From Lacrimispora sphenoides (GTDB taxonomy: Bacteria; Bacillota; Clostridia; Lachnospirales; Lachnospiraceae): a stretch of 64,000 nucleotides of DNA. Where the stretch lies: the NCBI RefSeq assembly GCF_900105215.1, contig NZ_FOIP01000001.1, positions 1,634,001 through 1,698,000 of the forward strand, given 5' to 3'. The notes beneath the pieces were generated by a model. The model saw only the letters and a list, made by a program, of their open reading frames with translations. It ran no database searches and was not told the DNA's origin. This document shows, in pieces, positions 30,523 through 40,051 of this stretch (the first letter of the stretch is position 1; each line of letters opens with the position of its first letter). A program made the position numbers and the translations under genes.

Positions 30523-32337
30523 ATGAATTTACTGACGATTGAACATTTAATAAAATCATATACGGAACGTCTGCTTTTTGATGATACCAGCTTCAGCATT
30601 AATGAAGGGGATAAGATCGGGCTAATCGGCATTAACGGAACCGGGAAATCCACTTTGCTACGGATCGTGGCAGGTCTTGAAGAGCCGGATCAGGGGACTG
30701 TGGTAAAGGGACGGAATTTAGATATCCGTTTTCTGTCTCAGAATCCAGTCTTCCATGAAGGTGATACCATTTTAGAGAGCATTGTCCGGGACAATGAAGG
30801 GCATGAGCATGTCTGGGACCTGGAAAGCCAGGCAAAGGCCATGCTGACCAGACTGGGATTTTCGGACTTTGATTCCAAGGTGGAGACCTTGTCAGGAGGA
30901 CAGAGAAAACGGGTGGCATTAGTCAGCGTCCTTCTTGGGAATACCGACTTACTGGTCCTTGACGAGCCAACCAACCATTTAGACAGCAGCATGGCAGACT
31001 GGCTGGAGGACTATTTAAAGCGTTTTAGAGGGGCGTTATTGATGGTAACCCATGACCGGTATTTTTTAGACAGCGTTACCAACCGGATTGTGGAGCTGGA
31101 TAAGGGAAAGCTTTACAACTATCAGGAGAATTATGAAGGCTATTTAAAGCTGAAGGCAGAGCGTATGGACATGGAGGCGGCCTCAGAGCGGAAACGCCAG
31201 TCCATCCTTAAAGTGGAGCTGGAATGGATGCAGCGGGGCGCCAGAGCGCGTTCTACCAAGCAGAAGGCTCATATCCAGCGCTATGAGAATCTCCGTGACC
31301 AGGAGGGGATTAAGATCGATCAGACGGTGGAACTGGATTCTGTTTCAAGCCGTCTGGGGCGTACCACAGTGGAGCTTAATGAGATCAACAAAGCCTTTGG
31401 GGAAAAGGTTCTGATGAAGGACTTTACCTATGTATTCTTAAAAAATGACCGAATCGGCATCATCGGGCCCAATGGAAGCGGTAAGTCCACGTTGATGAAG
31501 ATCACTGCAGGGTGGCTGGAGCCTGACGCTGGGACGGTTACCATAGGGCAGACCGTGAAAATGGGATATTTTTCTCAGGAAAGCGAAGACATGGATGGCA
31601 GTGTAAAGGTCATTGACTACATCCGGAATGTGGCGGAGTATGTAAAGACAAAGGATGGAAGTGTCAGCGCCTCTCAGATGCTGGAACGCTTTCTGTTTCC
31701 CTCAAGTGTTCAGTACACTACCGTCAGCAAGCTGTCCGGTGGGGAGAAAAGAAGGCTATATCTGCTCCGGATCCTGATGGAAGCGCCGAATGTGCTTTTG
31801 CTTGACGAGCCGACCAATGATCTGGATATCCAGACTTTAACGATCTTAGAGGATTATCTTGACAGCTTTCAGGGGATTGTAGTCACGGTTTCTCATGACC
31901 GGTATTTTCTGGACCGGGTCGTGCGCCGGATCTTTGCTTTTGAGGGCCAGGGCCGGGTGACCCAGTATGAGGGAGGCTTTACCGATTATCAGGCGGCATT
32001 TGAGGAGAAATATCCGGAAGGTCTTTCAGGCCAGGCTGAGGAAGCTGCAAAAAGTTCAGAAGCCACGGAAAAGAAGACCAAGGAAAAGCCAAAGGGAGAG
32101 AGGAAGCTAAAATTTTCCTTTAAGGAACAAAGAGAATGGGAAACCATAGAGGAGGATTTAGCGGCCCTGGAAGAAAAGATCGAAGCCCTGGACAGGCAGA
32201 TGGGAGAAGCTTCCAGTGATTACAGCAAGCTGAATGCGCTGATGGAAGAAAAGACAGAGCAGGAAAAGCTGCTGGAAGAAAAAATGGAGCGCTGGATGTA
32301 TCTAAACGATCTGGCAGAACAGATTGAGAACCAATAA
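30523..32337 (+). CDS. ABC-F ATPase, Uup-like
   Basis: A 604-residue ABC-F protein with two intact ATPase domains: Walker A GINGTGKST and GPNGSGKST, signatures LSGGQRKR and LSGGEKRR, Walker B LLVLDEPTNHLD and VLLLDEPTNDLD, and both H-loops SHD/THD. The linker WMQRGARARSTKQKAHIQRYE is typical of Uup. The C-terminal 90 residues are a highly charged coiled coil, as in Uup, which binds branched DNA and also acts on ribosomes. Unlike the other ABC-F protein in this window both ATP sites look functional. Confidence 0.9.
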   Translation: MNLLTIEHLIKSYTERLLFDDTSFSINEGDKIGLIGINGTGKSTLLRIVAGLEEPDQGTVVKGRNLDIRFLSQNPVFHEGDTILESIVRDNEGHEHVWDLESQAKAMLTRLGFSDFDSKVETLSGGQRKRVALVSVLLGNTDLLVLDEPTNHLDSSMADWLEDYLKRFRGALLMVTHDRYFLDSVTNRIVELDKGKLYNYQENYEGYLKLKAERMDMEAASERKRQSILKVELEWMQRGARARSTKQKAHIQRYENLRDQEGIKIDQTVELDSVSSRLGRTTVELNEINKAFGEKVLMKDFTYVFLKNDRIGIIGPNGSGKSTLMKITAGWLEPDAGTVTIGQTVKMGYFSQESEDMDGSVKVIDYIRNVAEYVKTKDGSVSASQMLERFLFPSSVQYTTVSKLSGGEKRRLYLLRILMEAPNVLLLDEPTNDLDIQTLTILEDYLDSFQGIVVTVSHDRYFLDRVVRRIFAFEGQGRVTQYEGGFTDYQAAFEEKYPEGLSGQAEEAAKSSEATEKKTKEKPKGERKLKFSFKEQREWETIEEDLAALEEKIEALDRQMGEASSDYSKLNALMEEKTEQEKLLEEKMERWMYLNDLAEQIENQ

Positions 32338-32403: not shown

Positions 32404-34239
32404 ATGGTACAGTACAAGATTGCAAAGCACGAGATGGGATCCTATTCTATGGGGCTCTCAAGGGTATCCGGCGGGATCCGCCTGTGTGTGGCTGCGCAAG
32501 GAGAGGAATGCAGGGTCCATATCTATAAGGCCGGAGAAGAAACACCGGTTCAGGCCCTTTCCTTTCCTGCAGAGGCCAGAAAAGGCGATGTATGGAGCAT
32601 GACCATTCTGGGAGAGGATTTTGAAAATCTGGAATACTGCTTTGAAATCGATGGAAAGCTGTTTTCTGATCCTTATGGAACACGTTTTACAGGATGGGAG
32701 ATATGGGGGGATCTTGAACACGCTTCCACTCATTTAAAAACTCCCATCGAGTTTTCTGATTTTGATTGGGAAGAGGATAAGCCTCTTCAAATTCCATATG
32801 AGGACAGTATCATATACCGGCTCCATAACCGGGGTTTTACTAAGCACGCCTCTTCCAAAGTAAAGAGCAGAGGGACCTTCGATGCCATACGGGAAAAGAT
32901 CCCTTATTTGAAGGAACTGGGCATTACTGCGGTGGAGCTGATGCCAGTGAATGAATTTTCCGAGGTCATCATGCAGGAACCTGTGTATGGAAGCCCTTTT
33001 GGTGTGGATAAACCTGTTGGAAAATTGAATTATTGGGGATATACGTCAGGCTGTTATTTTACTCCAAAGGCTTCCTACGCCTCTATAAAGGACCCGGCTT
33101 TGGAGTTTAAAAGCCTTGTGAAGGCTCTTCATAAGGAGGGGCTTGAGTTGATCGTGGAGCTTTTCTTTACCGGAAAGGAACCGCCCTCTTTTGTTCTTGA
33201 TGTGGTTCGGTTCTGGGCGGATGAATTTCATGTGGACGGGATTCATCTGGTAGGAGACCCGCCCTTAGACCTCCTTGAACGGGATCCTTATTTAAGCCGG
33301 ATCAAGCTGTTTGCGGTTTCCTGGGACCCGGCCTTTGAAGGAAAGGTTAAGCACTTAGGAGAGTATAATGACGGCTTTCTGGTGGATATGCGCCGGGTAT
33401 TAAAGGGAGACGAGGAACAGATGAAAAACCTTGCATTCCACACCAGGAGTAATCCATCGGGGTACGGCGTCATTAATTATATGGCCAATACCAACGGATT
33501 TACCATGATGGATATGGTATCTTACGATACCAAGCATAATGAGGAAAACGGGGAGAAAAACCAGGATGGCAATCCCTATAATTATTCCTGGAACTGCGGA
33601 GTCGAAGGGCCGACGAAACGGAAAAAGGTGGTGGAACTTCGGAAAAAGCAGCTGCGAAACGCATTCCTTCTTTTGCTTTTGAGCCAGGGAACGCCCCTTA
33701 TTATGGCTGGAGATGAATTCGGCAATTCCCAGTCAGGCAATAATAATGCATATTGCCAGGATAATGAAGTGTCGTGGCTGAACTGGAATCTGGTTAAGAC
33801 CAATCAGGATATTCTGGAGTTTGTGAAGGCAGTGATTGCATTCCGGAAATCTCATCCGGTGTTCCATATGCCGAAGGAGCCAAGGATCATGGATTATCTG
33901 GCATGCGGGTTCCCCGATGTTTCCTATCATGGAGTAAAGGCATGGTGCCCTGAATTTGATAATTTCCGGCGTCAGCTTGGAATCTTTTACTGTGGGGAAT
34001 ATGGAAGAAAACCGGATGGGACTGCGGATAACAATTTCTATGTGGCTTATAACATGCACTGGGAGCCACACGAATTTGATCTTCCTAATCTGCCTAAGAA
34101 GGAGCAATGGCATGTGGTCTTTCATACGGATAAAGGGGAAGAAAACGGCATGTACCCGGAAGGTAAGGAGCCTGCAGCAGAAGGGAAACGGTTTCTGATT
34201 CCACCCAGGTCCATCGTGGTGTTTATGGGAAAGAAATGA
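32404..34239 (+). CDS. GH13 debranching-enzyme homologue (GlgX/isoamylase-like) without catalytic acids
   Basis: A 611-residue protein with a CBM48-like N-terminal domain (to about 115), a GH13 barrel and a C-terminal beta domain. Long stretches match GlgX: NYWGYTSGCYFTPKASYA, SYDTKHNEENGEKNQDG, SQGTPLIMAGDEFGNSQ and GNNNAYCQDNEVSWLNW. The catalytic positions are changed: the nucleophile in VDGFRFD is Val283 (VDGIHLV), the acid in IAEPWD is Val305 (FAVSWD), and the HD of region IV is T363-N364 (NTNGFT). It should not hydrolyse glucan and may bind it. The reading frame is intact. It follows an ABC-F gene by 66 bases and ends in a strong terminator; no other glycogen gene is in view. Confidence 0.87.
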   Translation: MVQYKIAKHEMGSYSMGLSRVSGGIRLCVAAQGEECRVHIYKAGEETPVQALSFPAEARKGDVWSMTILGEDFENLEYCFEIDGKLFSDPYGTRFTGWEIWGDLEHASTHLKTPIEFSDFDWEEDKPLQIPYEDSIIYRLHNRGFTKHASSKVKSRGTFDAIREKIPYLKELGITAVELMPVNEFSEVIMQEPVYGSPFGVDKPVGKLNYWGYTSGCYFTPKASYASIKDPALEFKSLVKALHKEGLELIVELFFTGKEPPSFVLDVVRFWADEFHVDGIHLVGDPPLDLLERDPYLSRIKLFAVSWDPAFEGKVKHLGEYNDGFLVDMRRVLKGDEEQMKNLAFHTRSNPSGYGVINYMANTNGFTMMDMVSYDTKHNEENGEKNQDGNPYNYSWNCGVEGPTKRKKVVELRKKQLRNAFLLLLLSQGTPLIMAGDEFGNSQSGNNNAYCQDNEVSWLNWNLVKTNQDILEFVKAVIAFRKSHPVFHMPKEPRIMDYLACGFPDVSYHGVKAWCPEFDNFRRQLGIFYCGEYGRKPDGTADNNFYVAYNMHWEPHEFDLPNLPKKEQWHVVFHTDKGEENGMYPEGKEPAAEGKRFLIPPRSIVVFMGKK

Positions 34240-34281
34240 TCCGTGGTATTTGAAAAAGTTATTTACGGTTATGATGTTTTT

Positions 34282-34312
34282 GAGGGCAATCAATCGATTG
34301 CCCTCATTTTTT
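34282..34312 (+). terminator. Intrinsic terminator of the GH13-like gene
   Basis: A perfect 10-base stem (GAGGGCAATC and GATTGCCCTC) with an AATC loop at 34282-34305, followed by ATTTTTTAT. Confidence 0.92.
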
Positions 34313-34443
34313 ATGTATTTTTTATGAGCACATTTTTGTATATTTTTAAATGACAAATTTAGGTATCAATTAAGATAGAAAATAAAGCTTAATTATAATA
34401 ATTAATGAAAGTCAGTGATATATTGCATAAAAGAGGTGGGGCA

Positions 34444-36516
34444 ATGCAAGTTATTGAAAAGCGCGCGTTCAATTTATTGCAGTATCTGCTGAGTGACAGA
34501 AATTTTACTGTTAACAAAGCCATGGATTTATTAGGATGTTCCAAAAGGCAGATTGAATATGATGTGAGTAAGATCAATGAACTGCTGAAAGAAAATGAGA
34601 TTGATTTAATCAGATTGTCAAGAGGGAGATTTCTGATTAATAAGGAGACAATCGACAAAGTAACGAGGCTAAACCTGCCCCATCAGAAATTCATTGTTAA
34701 TGGGGAAAATAAAATCTGGATGATCTGTATTCAGATTTTTTGTACAAGGGAACCTTTGGGGTTGAATCACTTTATTACGAAGCTGCAATCAAGCAAGAAT
34801 ACGGTCTTAGGTGATTTAAGAAAAATTGCAAGCATAGGCAGCCAGTACAAGGTGGAATTAAAATACTCACGAAAATCAGGTTATTACTTTGAAGGTGAGC
34901 CCATTAAAATCCGATCTCTGGTATTACTGTCAATTATTAACTTAAAAGACAACTTTTTATGTAAAGAGCTGATCTCATTGGCAGTGTCGGACAATTCCTA
35001 TGCTGCTATATTTGAAGAAACAAAAGACAAGGTAGAGTCCCTGATTAAGGAATTTAATCTGCCGATTATGAAGGAATATCTAATCCTGGTGATCTATTTT
35101 ATCAGTTTACTGCCCTATCACTGTCAGTCAATTACATACGAATCCCCACTGATCCATGAACCCATGTGGAACCACCTCCCTCTTTATGAAGCTGTAACAG
35201 ATTTTTATGAGTCACTGACGTTTCATTTGTCCAAAGAAGAGATTGACTATTTATTTGTACTTTTGTTAAGCATGACTTTGGGAGATAACATGTATTTCCA
35301 GCTTTACGATCAGGAGAGCATATTTTTACAGGAGATGTGCCAAAGCCTGATTAAACGTTTTGAAGTAATCACAGGAACCGTGGTGCAGAAGAAGGCGGGC
35401 ATATCAGAAAACATGCTGATGCATTTACGTTTGGCCTATTTTCGGCTGAAGTATGGGATACCGGTAGTGAATCCTGCATTGATGCAGGTTAAAAAAGAGT
35501 ACGGAGAGGTATTTGACATATGCAGATTCGTACTGGAGCCCTTTGGGGATTATTTGGACTGCTTGATTCCCGATGATGAGATTGCCTATATTGCCTTGCA
35601 TTTTATGACGGTAATGGATTTACCGGATCAGGATAAGATCAGAAAAAGGGCGATTATCGTTTGCCAGAACGGACTTGCAAGCTCTGTTATGATGAAAAAC
35701 CAATTAATAAAAATATTTCCCGAAATACACTTTGTGGCTACCTGCAATGCAGAAGAATTCAAAGGGATTCCGCTTGAAACTTATGACATGGTTTTTTCCA
35801 CTACCGAGGGGATCGATGTGCCTGAAGATAAGTATTTGTTCCTGTCCTCCCCCATTTTAACGGTGGAAGAAAAATTTATAATAAGTGAAGCGGTATATTC
35901 TTCGGTATTTGGAATCAAATCAGAAGCTAATTTATCAGTTCATTCCATTTTGGAAATCGTAGAGAAATATGCAGTGATTCATGATCAGAAGGGATTAAGC
36001 AGCGACTTAAAGAACCTCTTGCAGAAGAAATATAAAAAAGAAAGCAACAGAGAAGGAGGATTACCTGTGATAAAAGACCTTCTTACGAAGGAAACCATAC
36101 AATTTGCTTCCCGTGTGAACAGTTGGGAGGAAGCAATCTGGCTGGGAGCAAGGCCTTTATTGGAGAATGGTTCCATAACAAAAGATTATATCAATGCAAT
36201 GATAGATAATGTAAAGGGCTTTGGTCCCTATATCGTAATATGTCCCTATGTTGCGATCCCCCATGCACAGAATCAAACAGGGGTCAATAAACTGGGAATG
36301 AGCTTTTTGAAGCTGGAAGAAGAGGTTTGCGTGCTGGATAATCCCCAAAAGCCGGTTAAGGTATTCATTACCATGGCGGCGATTGATAATCGCACACATT
36401 TAAGAGCGCTTGCCCAACTATCTAATATTTTAACCAATGAAGATACCAGGGAACAATTCGTAGCTTGTAACTCAGTGGAGGATGTCATCAAATTGCTTGA
36501 TATTGATGAGGAATAA
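34444..36516 (+). CDS. PRD-type transcriptional activator with EIIB-like and EIIA domains (BglG/MtlR type)
   Basis: A 690-residue regulator: N-terminal helix-turn-helix domains (about 1-130), PRD domains (about 170-390), an EIIB-like domain with Cys407 (VCQNGLASS), and a C-terminal EIIA domain with the phospho-His607 (YVAIPHAQ). Such proteins activate PTS operons and are tuned by phosphorylation from HPr and the cognate EII. ATG 34444 follows AAGAGGTGGGG. Ascorbate-type EIIB and EIIC genes start 20 bases after its stop, but no EIIA gene, so its own EIIA domain may feed the transporter. Confidence 0.88.
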   Translation: MQVIEKRAFNLLQYLLSDRNFTVNKAMDLLGCSKRQIEYDVSKINELLKENEIDLIRLSRGRFLINKETIDKVTRLNLPHQKFIVNGENKIWMICIQIFCTREPLGLNHFITKLQSSKNTVLGDLRKIASIGSQYKVELKYSRKSGYYFEGEPIKIRSLVLLSIINLKDNFLCKELISLAVSDNSYAAIFEETKDKVESLIKEFNLPIMKEYLILVIYFISLLPYHCQSITYESPLIHEPMWNHLPLYEAVTDFYESLTFHLSKEEIDYLFVLLLSMTLGDNMYFQLYDQESIFLQEMCQSLIKRFEVITGTVVQKKAGISENMLMHLRLAYFRLKYGIPVVNPALMQVKKEYGEVFDICRFVLEPFGDYLDCLIPDDEIAYIALHFMTVMDLPDQDKIRKRAIIVCQNGLASSVMMKNQLIKIFPEIHFVATCNAEEFKGIPLETYDMVFSTTEGIDVPEDKYLFLSSPILTVEEKFIISEAVYSSVFGIKSEANLSVHSILEIVEKYAVIHDQKGLSSDLKNLLQKKYKKESNREGGLPVIKDLLTKETIQFASRVNSWEEAIWLGARPLLENGSITKDYINAMIDNVKGFGPYIVICPYVAIPHAQNQTGVNKLGMSFLKLEEEVCVLDNPQKPVKVFITMAAIDNRTHLRALAQLSNILTNEDTREQFVACNSVEDVIKLLDIDEE

Positions 36517-36536
36517 AAAAACGAGGTAAATGTCAT

Positions 36537-36818
36537 ATGAAGATATTGGCGGTTTGCGGTTCAGGGCTTGGAAGCAGTTTTATGATGGAAATGAATATAA
36601 AAAATGTGTTAAAGGAGATTGGGGCAGCAGGAATTGAGGTGGATCACAGTGATTTAGGGGGTGCGACACCGGGAGCGGCAGATATCTTTATTGCAGGAAG
36701 AGATATCGCTATGGCAATGACCCATTTGAAAGGGGTCGTAGAGCTTGATAACCTGCTGGATAAAAAAGAACTGAAGGAAAAATTGGAAGAGTCCTTAAGG
36801 AAACTGAATGTAATCTAA
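36537..36818 (+). CDS. PTS EIIB, ascorbate/SgaB type
   Basis: A 93-residue EIIB with the active Cys7 in AVCGSGLGSS. The pattern (GIEVDHSDLGGA, then IFIAGRDIA) matches UlaB/SgaB. It accepts phosphate from an EIIA and passes it to the sugar bound by EIIC encoded next (23 bases downstream). GAGGTAAATG precedes the start. Confidence 0.9.
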   Translation: MKILAVCGSGLGSSFMMEMNIKNVLKEIGAAGIEVDHSDLGGATPGAADIFIAGRDIAMAMTHLKGVVELDNLLDKKELKEKLEESLRKLNVI

Positions 36819-36841
36819 TTGCGCAAAGAGAGGAGAAGACA

Positions 36842-38194
36842 ATGGCTGTTTTAAATATAATACAGGAAATTCTTTCGACCCCTGCAGTATTAGTGGCATT
36901 AATTGCATTGATTGGCTTATTGCTTCAAAAGAAACCTGCAGCAGATACCATCAGAGGTACGATAAAGTCATTTCTTGGTTTTATCGTGTTATCGGCAGGA
37001 GCAGATGTAATCGTCACATCCCTGGCCCCATTGGGAGGAATGTTTCAGGAAGCATTTCATACGGCAGGAGTTGTGCCAAATAACGAGGCCATTATTGCGG
37101 TGGCATTAAAAGAGTATGGCCAGGTTACTGCCCTGATCATGTTTTTCGGAATGTTCGCCAATATCTTAATTGCCCGTATTACCAGGTTTAAATATGTTTT
37201 TCTCACAGGACATCATACTCTTTATATGGCTTGTATGATTGGTGTTATCTTGATTACCATTGGCATGTCTACCGCTGCGACAGTCGTAGTGGGAGCGGTT
37301 GCCCTTGGAATTGTTATGGTGCTGTTCCCTGCCCTGGCACAGCCGACGATGAAAAAGATAACGAAATCCGATGATGTGGCTTTCGGACATTTCAGCACCA
37401 TCGGTTATTGGTCTTCTGCAATGATCGGTAAATTAGTAGGGAAAAATTCTAAGTCCACGGAAGAGATAGAATTCCCGAAATCACTTGCATTTTTAAGAGA
37501 CAGTTCCGTTTCTATTTCCCTGACTATGGTTATCTTTTATCTGATCCTTGCACTCTTTTGCGGACCGGACTATGTAAAGAATAACTGGTCAGACGGAACA
37601 AATTACATTATGTTTTCCATTACAAAAGGGATTCAGTTTGCGGCAGGAGTATTTATCATTTTACAGGGTGTGCGTCTGATCCTTGCAGAAATTGTGCCTG
37701 CATTCAAGGGTATTTCGGAAAGGCTGATTCCCAATGCGAAACCGGCGTTAGACTGCCCGATTGTGTATACCTTTGCGCCAAATGCTGTATTAATTGGTTT
37801 CTTCTCCAGTTTTGTAGGCGGGATCGTAGGTATGATAATGCTTATTCTTACCGGAGGAATCATCATATTGCCGGGAGTTGTGCCTCACTTCTTCTGCGGC
37901 GCTACGGCGGGAGTTTTCGGCAATGCCAACGGAGGGGTAAAAGGAGCTGTATTTGGATCCTTTATAAACGGTTTAATGCTGACCTTTGCTCCGCTTCTTT
38001 TAATGCCATTGCTTGGTGATCTGGGTTACCAGGGAACAACCTTCTCTGATCTGGATTTTATAGCTTCCGGATTCTTAATCGGCAAAGCCGGGCAATTAGG
38101 ACCTATAGCTGCCACCATATTCGTATTCGGAGTATTGGCAGTCATGATCGCTGTCTCAATTAAGAAACCTGGGAGAAAAGAATCAGAATCATGA
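36842..38194 (+). CDS. PTS EIIC, ascorbate/UlaA type
   Basis: A 450-residue membrane protein of about eleven helices with UlaA hallmarks: GFIVLSAGADVIVTSLAPLGGMF, FVLTGHHTLYMA-like FLTGHHTLYMACM, and PHFFCGATAGVFGNANGG. Family members carry L-ascorbate or related sugars and pentitols. Coupling to a split transketolase, and absence of UlaD/E/F-type genes, argue that the substrate may be a sugar entering the pentose phosphate pathway and not ascorbate. AGAGGAG precedes the start. Confidence 0.88.
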   Translation: MAVLNIIQEILSTPAVLVALIALIGLLLQKKPAADTIRGTIKSFLGFIVLSAGADVIVTSLAPLGGMFQEAFHTAGVVPNNEAIIAVALKEYGQVTALIMFFGMFANILIARITRFKYVFLTGHHTLYMACMIGVILITIGMSTAATVVVGAVALGIVMVLFPALAQPTMKKITKSDDVAFGHFSTIGYWSSAMIGKLVGKNSKSTEEIEFPKSLAFLRDSSVSISLTMVIFYLILALFCGPDYVKNNWSDGTNYIMFSITKGIQFAAGVFIILQGVRLILAEIVPAFKGISERLIPNAKPALDCPIVYTFAPNAVLIGFFSSFVGGIVGMIMLILTGGIIILPGVVPHFFCGATAGVFGNANGGVKGAVFGSFINGLMLTFAPLLLMPLLGDLGYQGTTFSDLDFIASGFLIGKAGQLGPIAATIFVFGVLAVMIAVSIKKPGRKESES

Positions 38195-38209
38195 TACATA
38201 GAGAGGAAG

Positions 38210-38245
38210 GCTGTAATGCTTGATGGTAGGTTCAGGCATTACAGC
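38210..38245 (+). repeat. Intercistronic inverted repeat
   Basis: GCTGTAATGC (38210-38219) and GCATTACAGC (38236-38245) form a perfect 10-base stem between the EIIC and transketolase genes, followed by TCTTCTG without a T-run. It probably stabilises or adjusts the mRNA, and is not a full terminator. Confidence 0.6.
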
Positions 38246-38279
38246 TCTTCTGTCAGAGATTAAAGAAAGAGGGATTGGA

Positions 38280-39119
38280 ATGGAGTATAAGGAGCTGCAA
38301 TTAATAGCCAATGATATCCGCAAGGGAATCATTGAGGCCGTATATAGTGCAGGCTGCGGACATCCGGGAGGGTCTTTATCCGCAGCAGAAATACTGGCAT
38401 ACCTGTTTTTTAAAGAGTTGAATATTAATGAAAAAGACCCGGGAAAGGAAGACCGTGACCGGTTTATCTTATCCAAGGGTCATATAACGCCAGGGTACTA
38501 TGCAGTACTGGCTAACCGTGGATTCTTTCCTGTGGATGAATTATCGACTTTTCGGAAAATAGGTTCCAGGTTACAGGGGCATCCGGATATGAAGAAAACG
38601 CCTGGCGTGGATATGTCCAGCGGATCTTTGGGACAGGGTATCTCCGTTGCTGCCGGGATGGCTTTGTCAGGGAAGCTGTCTTCTAAAAACTACCGTGTCT
38701 ACGCGCTTGCAGGTGACGGGGAAATACAGGAAGGGCAGGTATGGGAAGCAGCCATGTTTGCAGCCCACAGAGAATTAGACAATCTGGTCGTGATTGTAGA
38801 TAATAATAATCTCCAGATAGACGGAACCGTTGAGGAGATCTGTTCTCCCTATCCCATTGACAAGAAGTTTGAGGCTTTTGGGTTTCATGCCGTGACAGTC
38901 AACGGCCATAACTTTGAGGAACTGGAAGAAGCCTTTCTGACGGCAAAGCAGGTAAAAGGAAAACCAACGGTCATTATTACGAAGACAATAAAGGGAAAAG
39001 GCATCTCATTTATGGAAGATAATTTGTACTGGCATAGCGGTGTACTGAATGAAGAACAGTATCAGCTTGCTATGGACGAATTGGAAAGGGAAAGGAAGTT
39101 GTTATGTCAGGGATCATAA
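38280..39119 (+). CDS. Transketolase, N-terminal subunit
   Basis: A 279-residue half of a split transketolase. It holds the thiamine diphosphate binding region: GHPGGSLSAAEILA, SKGHITPGYYAVLA, SSGSLGQGISVAAGMA, and the GDGEIQEGQVWEAAMFA metal site with VDNNNLQIDG. Together with the C-terminal subunit it transfers two-carbon units between sugar phosphates. ATG 38280 follows GAAAGAGGGA. Its end overlaps the start of the second subunit by 16 bases. Confidence 0.93.
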   Translation: MEYKELQLIANDIRKGIIEAVYSAGCGHPGGSLSAAEILAYLFFKELNINEKDPGKEDRDRFILSKGHITPGYYAVLANRGFFPVDELSTFRKIGSRLQGHPDMKKTPGVDMSSGSLGQGISVAAGMALSGKLSSKNYRVYALAGDGEIQEGQVWEAAMFAAHRELDNLVVIVDNNNLQIDGTVEEICSPYPIDKKFEAFGFHAVTVNGHNFEELEEAFLTAKQVKGKPTVIITKTIKGKGISFMEDNLYWHSGVLNEEQYQLAMDELERERKLLCQGS

Positions 39120-40051
39120 AGAAGGCAACCAGAGACAGTTATGGCGAAGCATTAGTGGAATTAGGTAATATCCATGAAGATTTACTTGTATTGGATGCTG
39201 ATCTGGCTTCTGCGACAAAGACCGCTTATTTTAAAAAGGCATTTCCTGACCGACATATCGACTGCGGGATTGCAGAGTGTAATATGATGGGGGTTTCTGC
39301 AGGCTTATCTTTAACAGGTAAGATCCCCTTTGCCAGTTCCTTTGCCATGTTTACGGCAGGTCGTGGGTTTGAACAGATACGCAATTCCATTGGATACCCT
39401 GGTTTAAATGTAAAAATCGGAGCCACTCACGGAGGGATCTCTGTAGGAGAGGATGGAGCCACGCATCAATGCAATGAGGACTTTGCTATCATGAGGACCA
39501 TACCGGGAATGGTTGTCATATGTCCTTCGGATGACATAGAAACAAAAGCATCGGTAAAGGCAGCATATAACCATAAAGGGCCTGTTTATTTAAGATTTGG
39601 AAGAGTCCCTGTTCCTCCTGTTAATCAGAGGGAAGACTATCATTTTGAGATTGGGAAAGGTGTCGTATTAAAAGAGGGCAGAGATATTACTGTCATTGCA
39701 AATGGGATTCTGGTAAATGAAGTGCTTGAGGCAGAGAAGGTATTGGCGGAAAAAGGGCTTCAGGTACAGATAATAAATATCCATACCATTAAGCCCTTGG
39801 ATAAGGATTTAGTGATACAGTCAGCAAAAAAGACAGCGAAAATAGTAGTAGTGGAGGAGCATTCCATTATCGGCGGTTTAGGAAGCGCGGTGTGTGATGC
39901 ACTGTCTGAAAATTATCCGGTCCCAGTTTTAAAAATAGGCGTGAATGACGTCTATGGTAGATCCGGCTCTGCAAGGGAACTCCTAAGAGAGCATGAACTG
40001 GATTCAGAAAGCCTGGCAAATCGCATACTTAATTTTTATAATCGGAAGTAA
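39104..40051 (+). CDS. Transketolase, C-terminal subunit
   Basis: A 315-residue second half of transketolase with the pyrimidine-binding domain (DADLASATKT, GIAECNMMGVSAGLSLTGKIPFASSFAMFTAGR with the catalytic Glu) and the C-terminal domain from about residue 190 (VIANGILVNEVLEAEKVL, VVEEHSIIGGLG). GAAAGGAAG lies within the end of the N-subunit gene before this ATG, so the two are translationally linked. A terminator follows. Confidence 0.93.
   Translation: MSGIIKKATRDSYGEALVELGNIHEDLLVLDADLASATKTAYFKKAFPDRHIDCGIAECNMMGVSAGLSLTGKIPFASSFAMFTAGRGFEQIRNSIGYPGLNVKIGATHGGISVGEDGATHQCNEDFAIMRTIPGMVVICPSDDIETKASVKAAYNHKGPVYLRFGRVPVPPVNQREDYHFEIGKGVVLKEGRDITVIANGILVNEVLEAEKVLAEKGLQVQIINIHTIKPLDKDLVIQSAKKTAKIVVVEEHSIIGGLGSAVCDALSENYPVPVLKIGVNDVYGRSGSARELLREHELDSESLANRILNFYNRK

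Follow-up and report, generated by a model that had tools for sequence, protein, structure and literature searches.

A widely retained GlgX/isoamylase homologue that has lost its catalytic site and may bind alpha-glucan

The window analysed here, a stretch of 64,000 nucleotides from Lacrimispora sphenoides (RefSeq assembly GCF_900105215.1, contig NZ_FOIP01000001.1, positions 1,634,001 to 1,698,000), carries at positions 32404-34239 of its forward strand a gene for a 611-amino-acid homologue of the debranching enzymes GlgX, TreX and isoamylase. To judge from alignments, the hydrolytic machinery of this protein is gone: it has lost its catalytic triad, its region I and the loop that separates region I from region II. 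We explain it best as a non-catalytic protein of the isoamylase fold that most likely binds alpha-glucan, in the form of glycogen or limit-dextrin chains, in the old substrate groove. This explanation draws on the sequence, in which we find catalytic loss, a fold that is predicted to be kept, outer sugar contacts that are kept, purifying selection and wide retention of the gene.

The open reading frame starts with ATG and runs through all of its codons without an internal stop, as had been reported in an earlier reading of the DNA made from its letters alone (the sequence-only reading). That reading had also picked out three altered motifs, VDGIHLV (residues 277-283), FAVSWD (303-308) and NTNGFT (362-367), alongside retained GlgX-like blocks such as KHNEENGE (377-384) and GNNNAYCQDNEVSWLNW (445-461), and all of these are present. 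Its claim that the three catalytic acids, the region II Arg and the region IV His had all been changed was borne out by alignment with solved GlgX, TreX and isoamylase 1 structures, in which no intact Asp/Glu/Asp set appears: V283, V305 and N364 align with the catalytic Asp, Glu and Asp, H281 with the region II Arg and T363 with the region IV His. The losses extend beyond those it described. Region I is rewritten, reading ELFFTGK where the enzymes have DVVFNHT, with its His and Asn gone, and the stretch from region I to region II is 44 residues shorter than in the enzymes. The span from F255 to D278 covers 24 residues in the window protein and 23-25 in 101 related sequences of the same kind (dead-type sequences), compared with 68 in 24 of 24 intact ones. 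The protein scores 326.1 bits with the family model TIGR02100, below the membership cut-off of 640.9, and it matches the Pfam alpha-amylase domain only in part.

Relatives were gathered by several routes. A protein search scored at least 7996 relatives, the best 120 of which all share at least 59% identity with the query and form with it a close set of 121 sequences. From a GTDB genome scan we took the best 80 of 588 confirmed loci, comprising 61 dead-type loci and 19 with intact motifs; because E384 and the SWNCG block were part of the motifs used to find these 80, conservation at those places is partly built in. Another 39 loci, from the top of the score list of partial GlgX matches in a hidden Markov model (HMM) scan of the bacterial family, lack the triad without exception (39/39). 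Finally, 30 more loci came from a test of a dead-family profile at E 1e-30 (see below); 26 of them were first picked through a GNNN plus WNCG filter and the other 4 were brought in afterwards, so the 30 together are free of a motif filter. A sequence was called dead in our scripts if it lacked RFDLA, and the call was afterwards verified residue by residue.

The full triad is kept in none of the 131 distinct dead-type sequences, the window's included (one duplicate pair, L061 and L191, was collapsed). Among 101 of them, the nucleophile Asp is kept in 1, the Glu at position 305 in 22 and the transition-state Asp at position 364 in 17. The further 27 plus 4 sequences likewise hold no full triad and add a single Asp at the nucleophile position, in L202, which has neither the Glu nor the transition-state Asp. 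Both of the latter residues are present, and the nucleophile absent, in L033, L038, L048 and L128. Loss can be mosaic: L119 keeps the Arg, the nucleophile Asp and the region IV His, and L128 keeps the Arg, Glu, His and Asp without the nucleophile. In the close set, G284 is invariant (121), followed by N364 (120), H281 (119), T363 (106) and V283 (85), and position 305 varies freely. The idea that V283, V305 and T363-N364 might be conserved among orthologues holds in the close set largely for N364 and T363 and mostly for V283 and fails at position 305, and across the wider dead family (101 sequences) the positions of H281, V283, 305, T363 and N364 all drift.

Dead and intact sequences are split by one branch with a support of 100 in the Shimodaira-Hasegawa-like approximate likelihood ratio test (SH-aLRT), both for 62 versus 19 sequences and for 101 versus 24, in trees that were quick and unrooted and have several weak inner forks. 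Of the 25 genus genomes, 24 have the gene (that of the window is one of them), with identities of at least 66%; the one that lacks it, G308, is 99% complete. The pairwise ratio of nonsynonymous to synonymous substitution rates (dN/dS) has a median of 0.096 and a maximum of 0.184 (76 of 276 genus pairs, those with dS between 0.05 and 1.2). Purifying selection acts on the gene, and the protein is maintained. Since 24 of 25 genus genomes carry the gene and none of the 131 sequences has the triad, the loss is due neither to chance nor to sequencing error, and we rejected the latter. Together with wide retention, the loss of triad, region I and loop under purifying selection strongly supports the reading of this protein as a pseudoenzyme.

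We estimated that retention with a dead-family profile built from 42 dead sequences and applied at E 1e-100 to 298 genomes of the bacterial family. It matched 242 of them, and 230 were left after we dropped 12 whose matches fell short of about 1e-129; this limit was set by eye and leaves two genomes with unread sequences (G097 and G248) just inside it. Ten of the dropped genomes carry an active-type GlgX, to which the profile match may be due, and the other two (G125 and G158) are probably real carriers. The gene was read as sequence in 71 of the 230 carrier genomes, the window's own included. A full-length match to active-type GlgX was found by score in 103 of the 298 genomes, in 69 of them over the family cut-off, and the 5 of the 103 that were read are all intact. 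By score, 91 genomes have both genes, 139 the dead gene alone and 12 a GlgX without the dead gene or with an ambiguous match. In a sample of 118 genomes from the class, a close-homologue profile at E 1e-60 matched only 2, both from the same family, of which the sample lists 4 genomes. We conclude that most sampled genomes of one family, apparently the Lachnospiraceae to judge from named homologues, carry the gene. Confinement to the Lachnospiraceae is not proven, because some dead loci bear names from outside it, for example Clostridium sp. (L028) and Eubacterium sp. (L040 and L082), or are unplaced (L048, L072, L097 and L098). A partial TIGR02100 match had been considered as a marker of the dead gene. 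It proved about right but inexact, with 35 of 38 tested genomes hitting the dead profile at E 1e-30 (G051, G092 and G136 did not) and no match at that threshold in two genomes with background TIGR02100 scores, and the counts were made with the dead-family profile instead. One genome, G213, has two dead-profile matches on different contigs, at about 797 and 794 bits, one of which (L118) was read.

The scaffold has fared differently from the catalytic centre. A predicted model places residues 12-611 in an isoamylase fold, with an N-terminal domain, an eight-stranded barrel and a C-terminal beta domain, and the solved structures nearest to it in fold are ISA1 chains, taken from dimers of ISA1 and from ISA1-ISA2 complexes. 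Dead-type sequences preserve 20 of the 21 positions that are invariant in intact enzymes in the block at residues 366-404 and all 11 in the block at 436-462. The outer sugar contacts of the GlgX-acarbose structure are near-invariant in the dead family, whereas the catalytic positions drift. W211 is found in 101 of 101 dead-type sequences and Y213 in 89 (F in the rest), with counts of 39/39 and 36/39 in the loci chosen with the GlgX HMM, and E384, N448 and Y450 also correspond to outer contacts. For the part of the sequence-only reading that called the pseudoenzyme glucan binding or regulatory, these near-invariant contacts are the indirect evidence.

We propose that removal of the loop would open the groove and that W211 and Y213, together with E384, N448 and Y450, would hold a chain there uncut. 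The protein would act in the cytoplasm; by eye, no signal peptide was seen in it, and no program was run for one. There, associated with glycogen, it could be a scaffold or regulator by which GlgB, GlgA, phosphorylase and, where present, GlgX are limited, guided or recruited. Several observations weigh against glucan binding. The contact W380 is kept in just 40 of 101 dead-type sequences, and the Arg212 contact could not be placed, its loop having no clear counterpart. Ninety-eight positions are conserved in both the dead and the intact groups, and the retained blocks may serve folding rather than binding. The 39 HMM-chosen loci are the best-scoring partial GlgX matches listed, a choice that favours GlgX-like residues, and the alignment behind the model includes 6 intact enzymes in its 82 rows, which may bias it towards the enzyme fold. 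The recurrent neighbours of the gene in relatives are housekeeping rather than glycogen genes. Nor does co-occurrence provide a link, since the glycogen synthase GlgA is universal with or without the gene: it was found in 40 of 40 genomes without the gene (of 47 with background TIGR02100 scores only) and in 40 of 40 with a partial match, one of which (G051) turned out to lack the gene. With GlgA in all 80 genomes, we rejected co-occurrence with glycogen synthesis as an explanation of the presence or absence of the gene.

Among known systems, the solved relatives of the window protein rank by bit score as TreX (250), plant isoamylase 1 (248), Streptomyces GlgX (244), Escherichia coli GlgX (196) and plant ISA2 (97-112). 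With the GlgX/TreX/isoamylase group (GH13_11; TIGR02100) it shares the predicted fold, the outer sugar contacts and the long blocks that follow region IV, but it differs in lacking the triad, the region I His and Asn and the 44 loop residues and in scoring below the family cut-off. Type I pullulanase (TIGR02104) has a related barrel, but the score of 132 bits is far below the cut-off of 504.5, and the catalytic residues are missing from the window protein. Its sequence thus fails the catalytic tests of GlgX, and we class the dead family as a variant of the non-catalytic isoamylases. The closest known parallel is plant ISA2, described in PMC12510319 as a non-catalytic isoamylase paralogue that is bound to ISA1, has four or more of five catalytic-site residues replaced, the nucleophile included, is kept throughout the Chloroplastida, has an extra N-terminal domain and evolves fast. 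The window protein shares with ISA2 the isoamylase fold, the replaced catalytic residues, an old origin and selection; its Arg, Asp, Glu, His and Asp, which we take to be the five residues meant in that paper, are all replaced. It differs in lacking the additional N-terminal beta-sandwich (residue 12, with 11 residues before it, already aligns with residue 100 of rice ISA1), and no GlgX or isoamylase partner was found in the window's genome. We do not class it as ISA2, because it is without the extra domain, it scores closer to active enzymes and many genomes with such a protein have no GlgX. Scores nearer to ISA1, TreX and GlgX (244-250) than to ISA2 indicate an independent loss, and independence is probable, pairwise scores alone being no proof given that the fast evolution of ISA2 could contribute to them.

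No bacterial non-catalytic GlgX was named in the titles and abstract openings among the matches listed in a literature search, and no such bacterial proteins are described in the available parts of PMC12510319, PMC9530166, PMC4236520, PMC10395257, PMC11046441, PMC12892837 and PMC5716241. Streptomyces GlgX is under the control of cyclic di-GMP, and the binding arginines are named in PMC9530166. A 648-amino-acid glgX2 product without CBM48 is listed for Butyrivibrio beside a 726-amino-acid glgX1 product with CBM48 in PMC5716241; judged by its length, glgX2 may be the dead-type protein. We put forward, tentatively and at slightly less than an even chance, that the family is an unreported and independent bacterial counterpart of ISA2, an old non-catalytic isoamylase present in about three quarters of the sampled genomes of one family (apparently the Lachnospiraceae), which would bind glycogen and influence how it is built or turned over, often in cells that have neither GlgX nor type I pullulanase, and which is entered in some databases under the names alpha-amylase, isoamylase or glycogen operon protein.

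If the protein resembled ISA2 in function as well, it would associate in a complex with a catalytic GH13 enzyme (GlgX, in genomes that have it) and stabilise or target this enzyme. The plant precedent (PMC12510319) and the ISA1 chains of dimers and ISA1-ISA2 complexes that lie nearest to the model speak for such a partnership, as does the presence of the dead gene in 91 of the 103 family genomes with an active-type GlgX, a count by score with the same 5 sequences read. We nevertheless consider it unlikely, given that 139 of the 298 genomes have the dead gene without a full-length GlgX match. Type I pullulanase was tested in 58 genomes, 57 of which have the dead gene and no active-type GlgX. 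No match at E 1e-60 was found in 37 of those 57; there, the dead protein is the only protein of the GlgX or type I pullulanase type found. Debranching families beyond these two were searched for in the window's genome only. In that genome nothing scores above the GlgX cut-off, and neither GH133 nor type I pullulanase was found (GH57 was not searched for), so that the role of partner there would fall to GlgB, a neopullulanase-like enzyme or another protein. It does have one glycogen synthase, two proteins judged by eye to be branching enzymes and a 709-amino-acid neopullulanase/TVAI-like GH13 protein (L009 1042-3171), which may carry out debranching in place of GlgX.

Less likely still is a role apart from glucan, in which the barrel has been co-opted for another small molecule or protein, for example as a sensor. 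H281, G284 and N364 are fixed in the old centre of close homologues, as a new ligand pocket might be, the gene lies in synteny with translation and repair genes, and some homologues (P0086, P0095, P0108, P0109 and P0120) bear long charged C-terminal tails, mostly rich in Glu and Lys, which the window protein lacks. Against this, the old centre is poorly conserved in the wider family, and the outer glucan contacts are among its most conserved positions. It appears very improbable that the protein remains enzymatically active through a rebuilt catalytic site. The residual acids counted above, including the nucleophile-position Asp of L119 and L202 and the four sequences with Glu and transition-state Asp, might be taken to speak for it, and many carrier genomes are without a GlgX or type I pullulanase match. 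But no sequence keeps the triad, neither the His of the -1 subsite nor the loop from region I to region II is present, and the dead clade has no new invariant acidic pair: 16 positions are conserved in it without being equally so in the enzymes, just four of these are acidic (E164, D336, D497 and D505), and at E164, D336 and D505 an E or D is the commonest residue in enzymes too. A decaying pseudogene, to which loss of the catalytic residues alone might point, is scarcely credible and was rejected, there being neither a broken frame nor relaxed selection: the frame is intact, dN/dS is about 0.1, and the gene persists in 24 of 25 genus genomes and about 230 of 298 family genomes.

Dead-type proteins should not be counted as debranching enzymes, which would misstate glycogen use by such bacteria; annotation sources name some of them alpha-amylase, isoamylase or glycogen operon protein. 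A bacterial family with an ISA2-like loss, probably independent and mostly in single copy, would make such a loss testable where glycogen metabolism is simple.

Table 1. Features of the gene and its surroundings, in window coordinates
Feature	Position	Strand	Basis or remark
Non-catalytic GlgX/isoamylase homologue, 611 aa	32404..34239	+	Intact open reading frame; TIGR02100 326 bits; nearest solved TreX, ISA1, GlgX
W211-G-Y213, equivalent to sugar contacts Trp222/Tyr224 of S. venezuelae GlgX	33034..33042	+	Conservation counts
Rewritten region I, residues 250-262, and site of 44-residue deletion	33151..33189	+	Alignments
Dead region II, VDGIHLVGD	33232..33258	+	H281 for Arg, V283 for nucleophile Asp
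Dead region III, LFAVSWD	33307..33327	+	V305 for acid/base Glu
Dead region IV, MANTNGFT	33481..33504	+	T363-N364 for His-Asp
Retained block 366-404 (KHNEENGE...NYSWNCGVEG)	33499..33615	+	E384 equivalent to GlgX glucan contact Glu470
Retained block 436-462 (GDEFGNSQSGNNNAYCQDNEVSWLNWN)	33709..33789	+	N448, Y450 equivalent to glucan contacts Asn534, Tyr536
ABC-F-type ATPase gene	30523..32337	+	Two ABC_tran domains and linker; ABC-F is our label
Terminator-like hairpin (11 pairs), then T run	34281..34306	+	Just 3' of the gene

The ABC-F-type gene ends 66 bp upstream of the dead GlgX homologue on the same strand (Table 1), and co-transcription of the two is possible. Relatives in the same cluster lie directly upstream on the shared strand in 12 of 62 dead-type loci, the window's included, and clustering of the flanking open reading frames in those 62 loci gave GltX, UvrD, DUF1292, DUF5662, TrpS and ABC-F as recurrent neighbours. 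The hairpin downstream is weak evidence alone, since 2 terminator-like sites were found in the region where 2.2 are expected by chance. Just beyond it, at 34405-40051 on the forward strand, lies what by eye is a sugar-acid or pentose phosphotransferase system (PTS) operon, with a regulator bearing PRD and EIIA domains followed, again by eye, by genes for PTS EIIB and EIIC and by a split transketolase pair.
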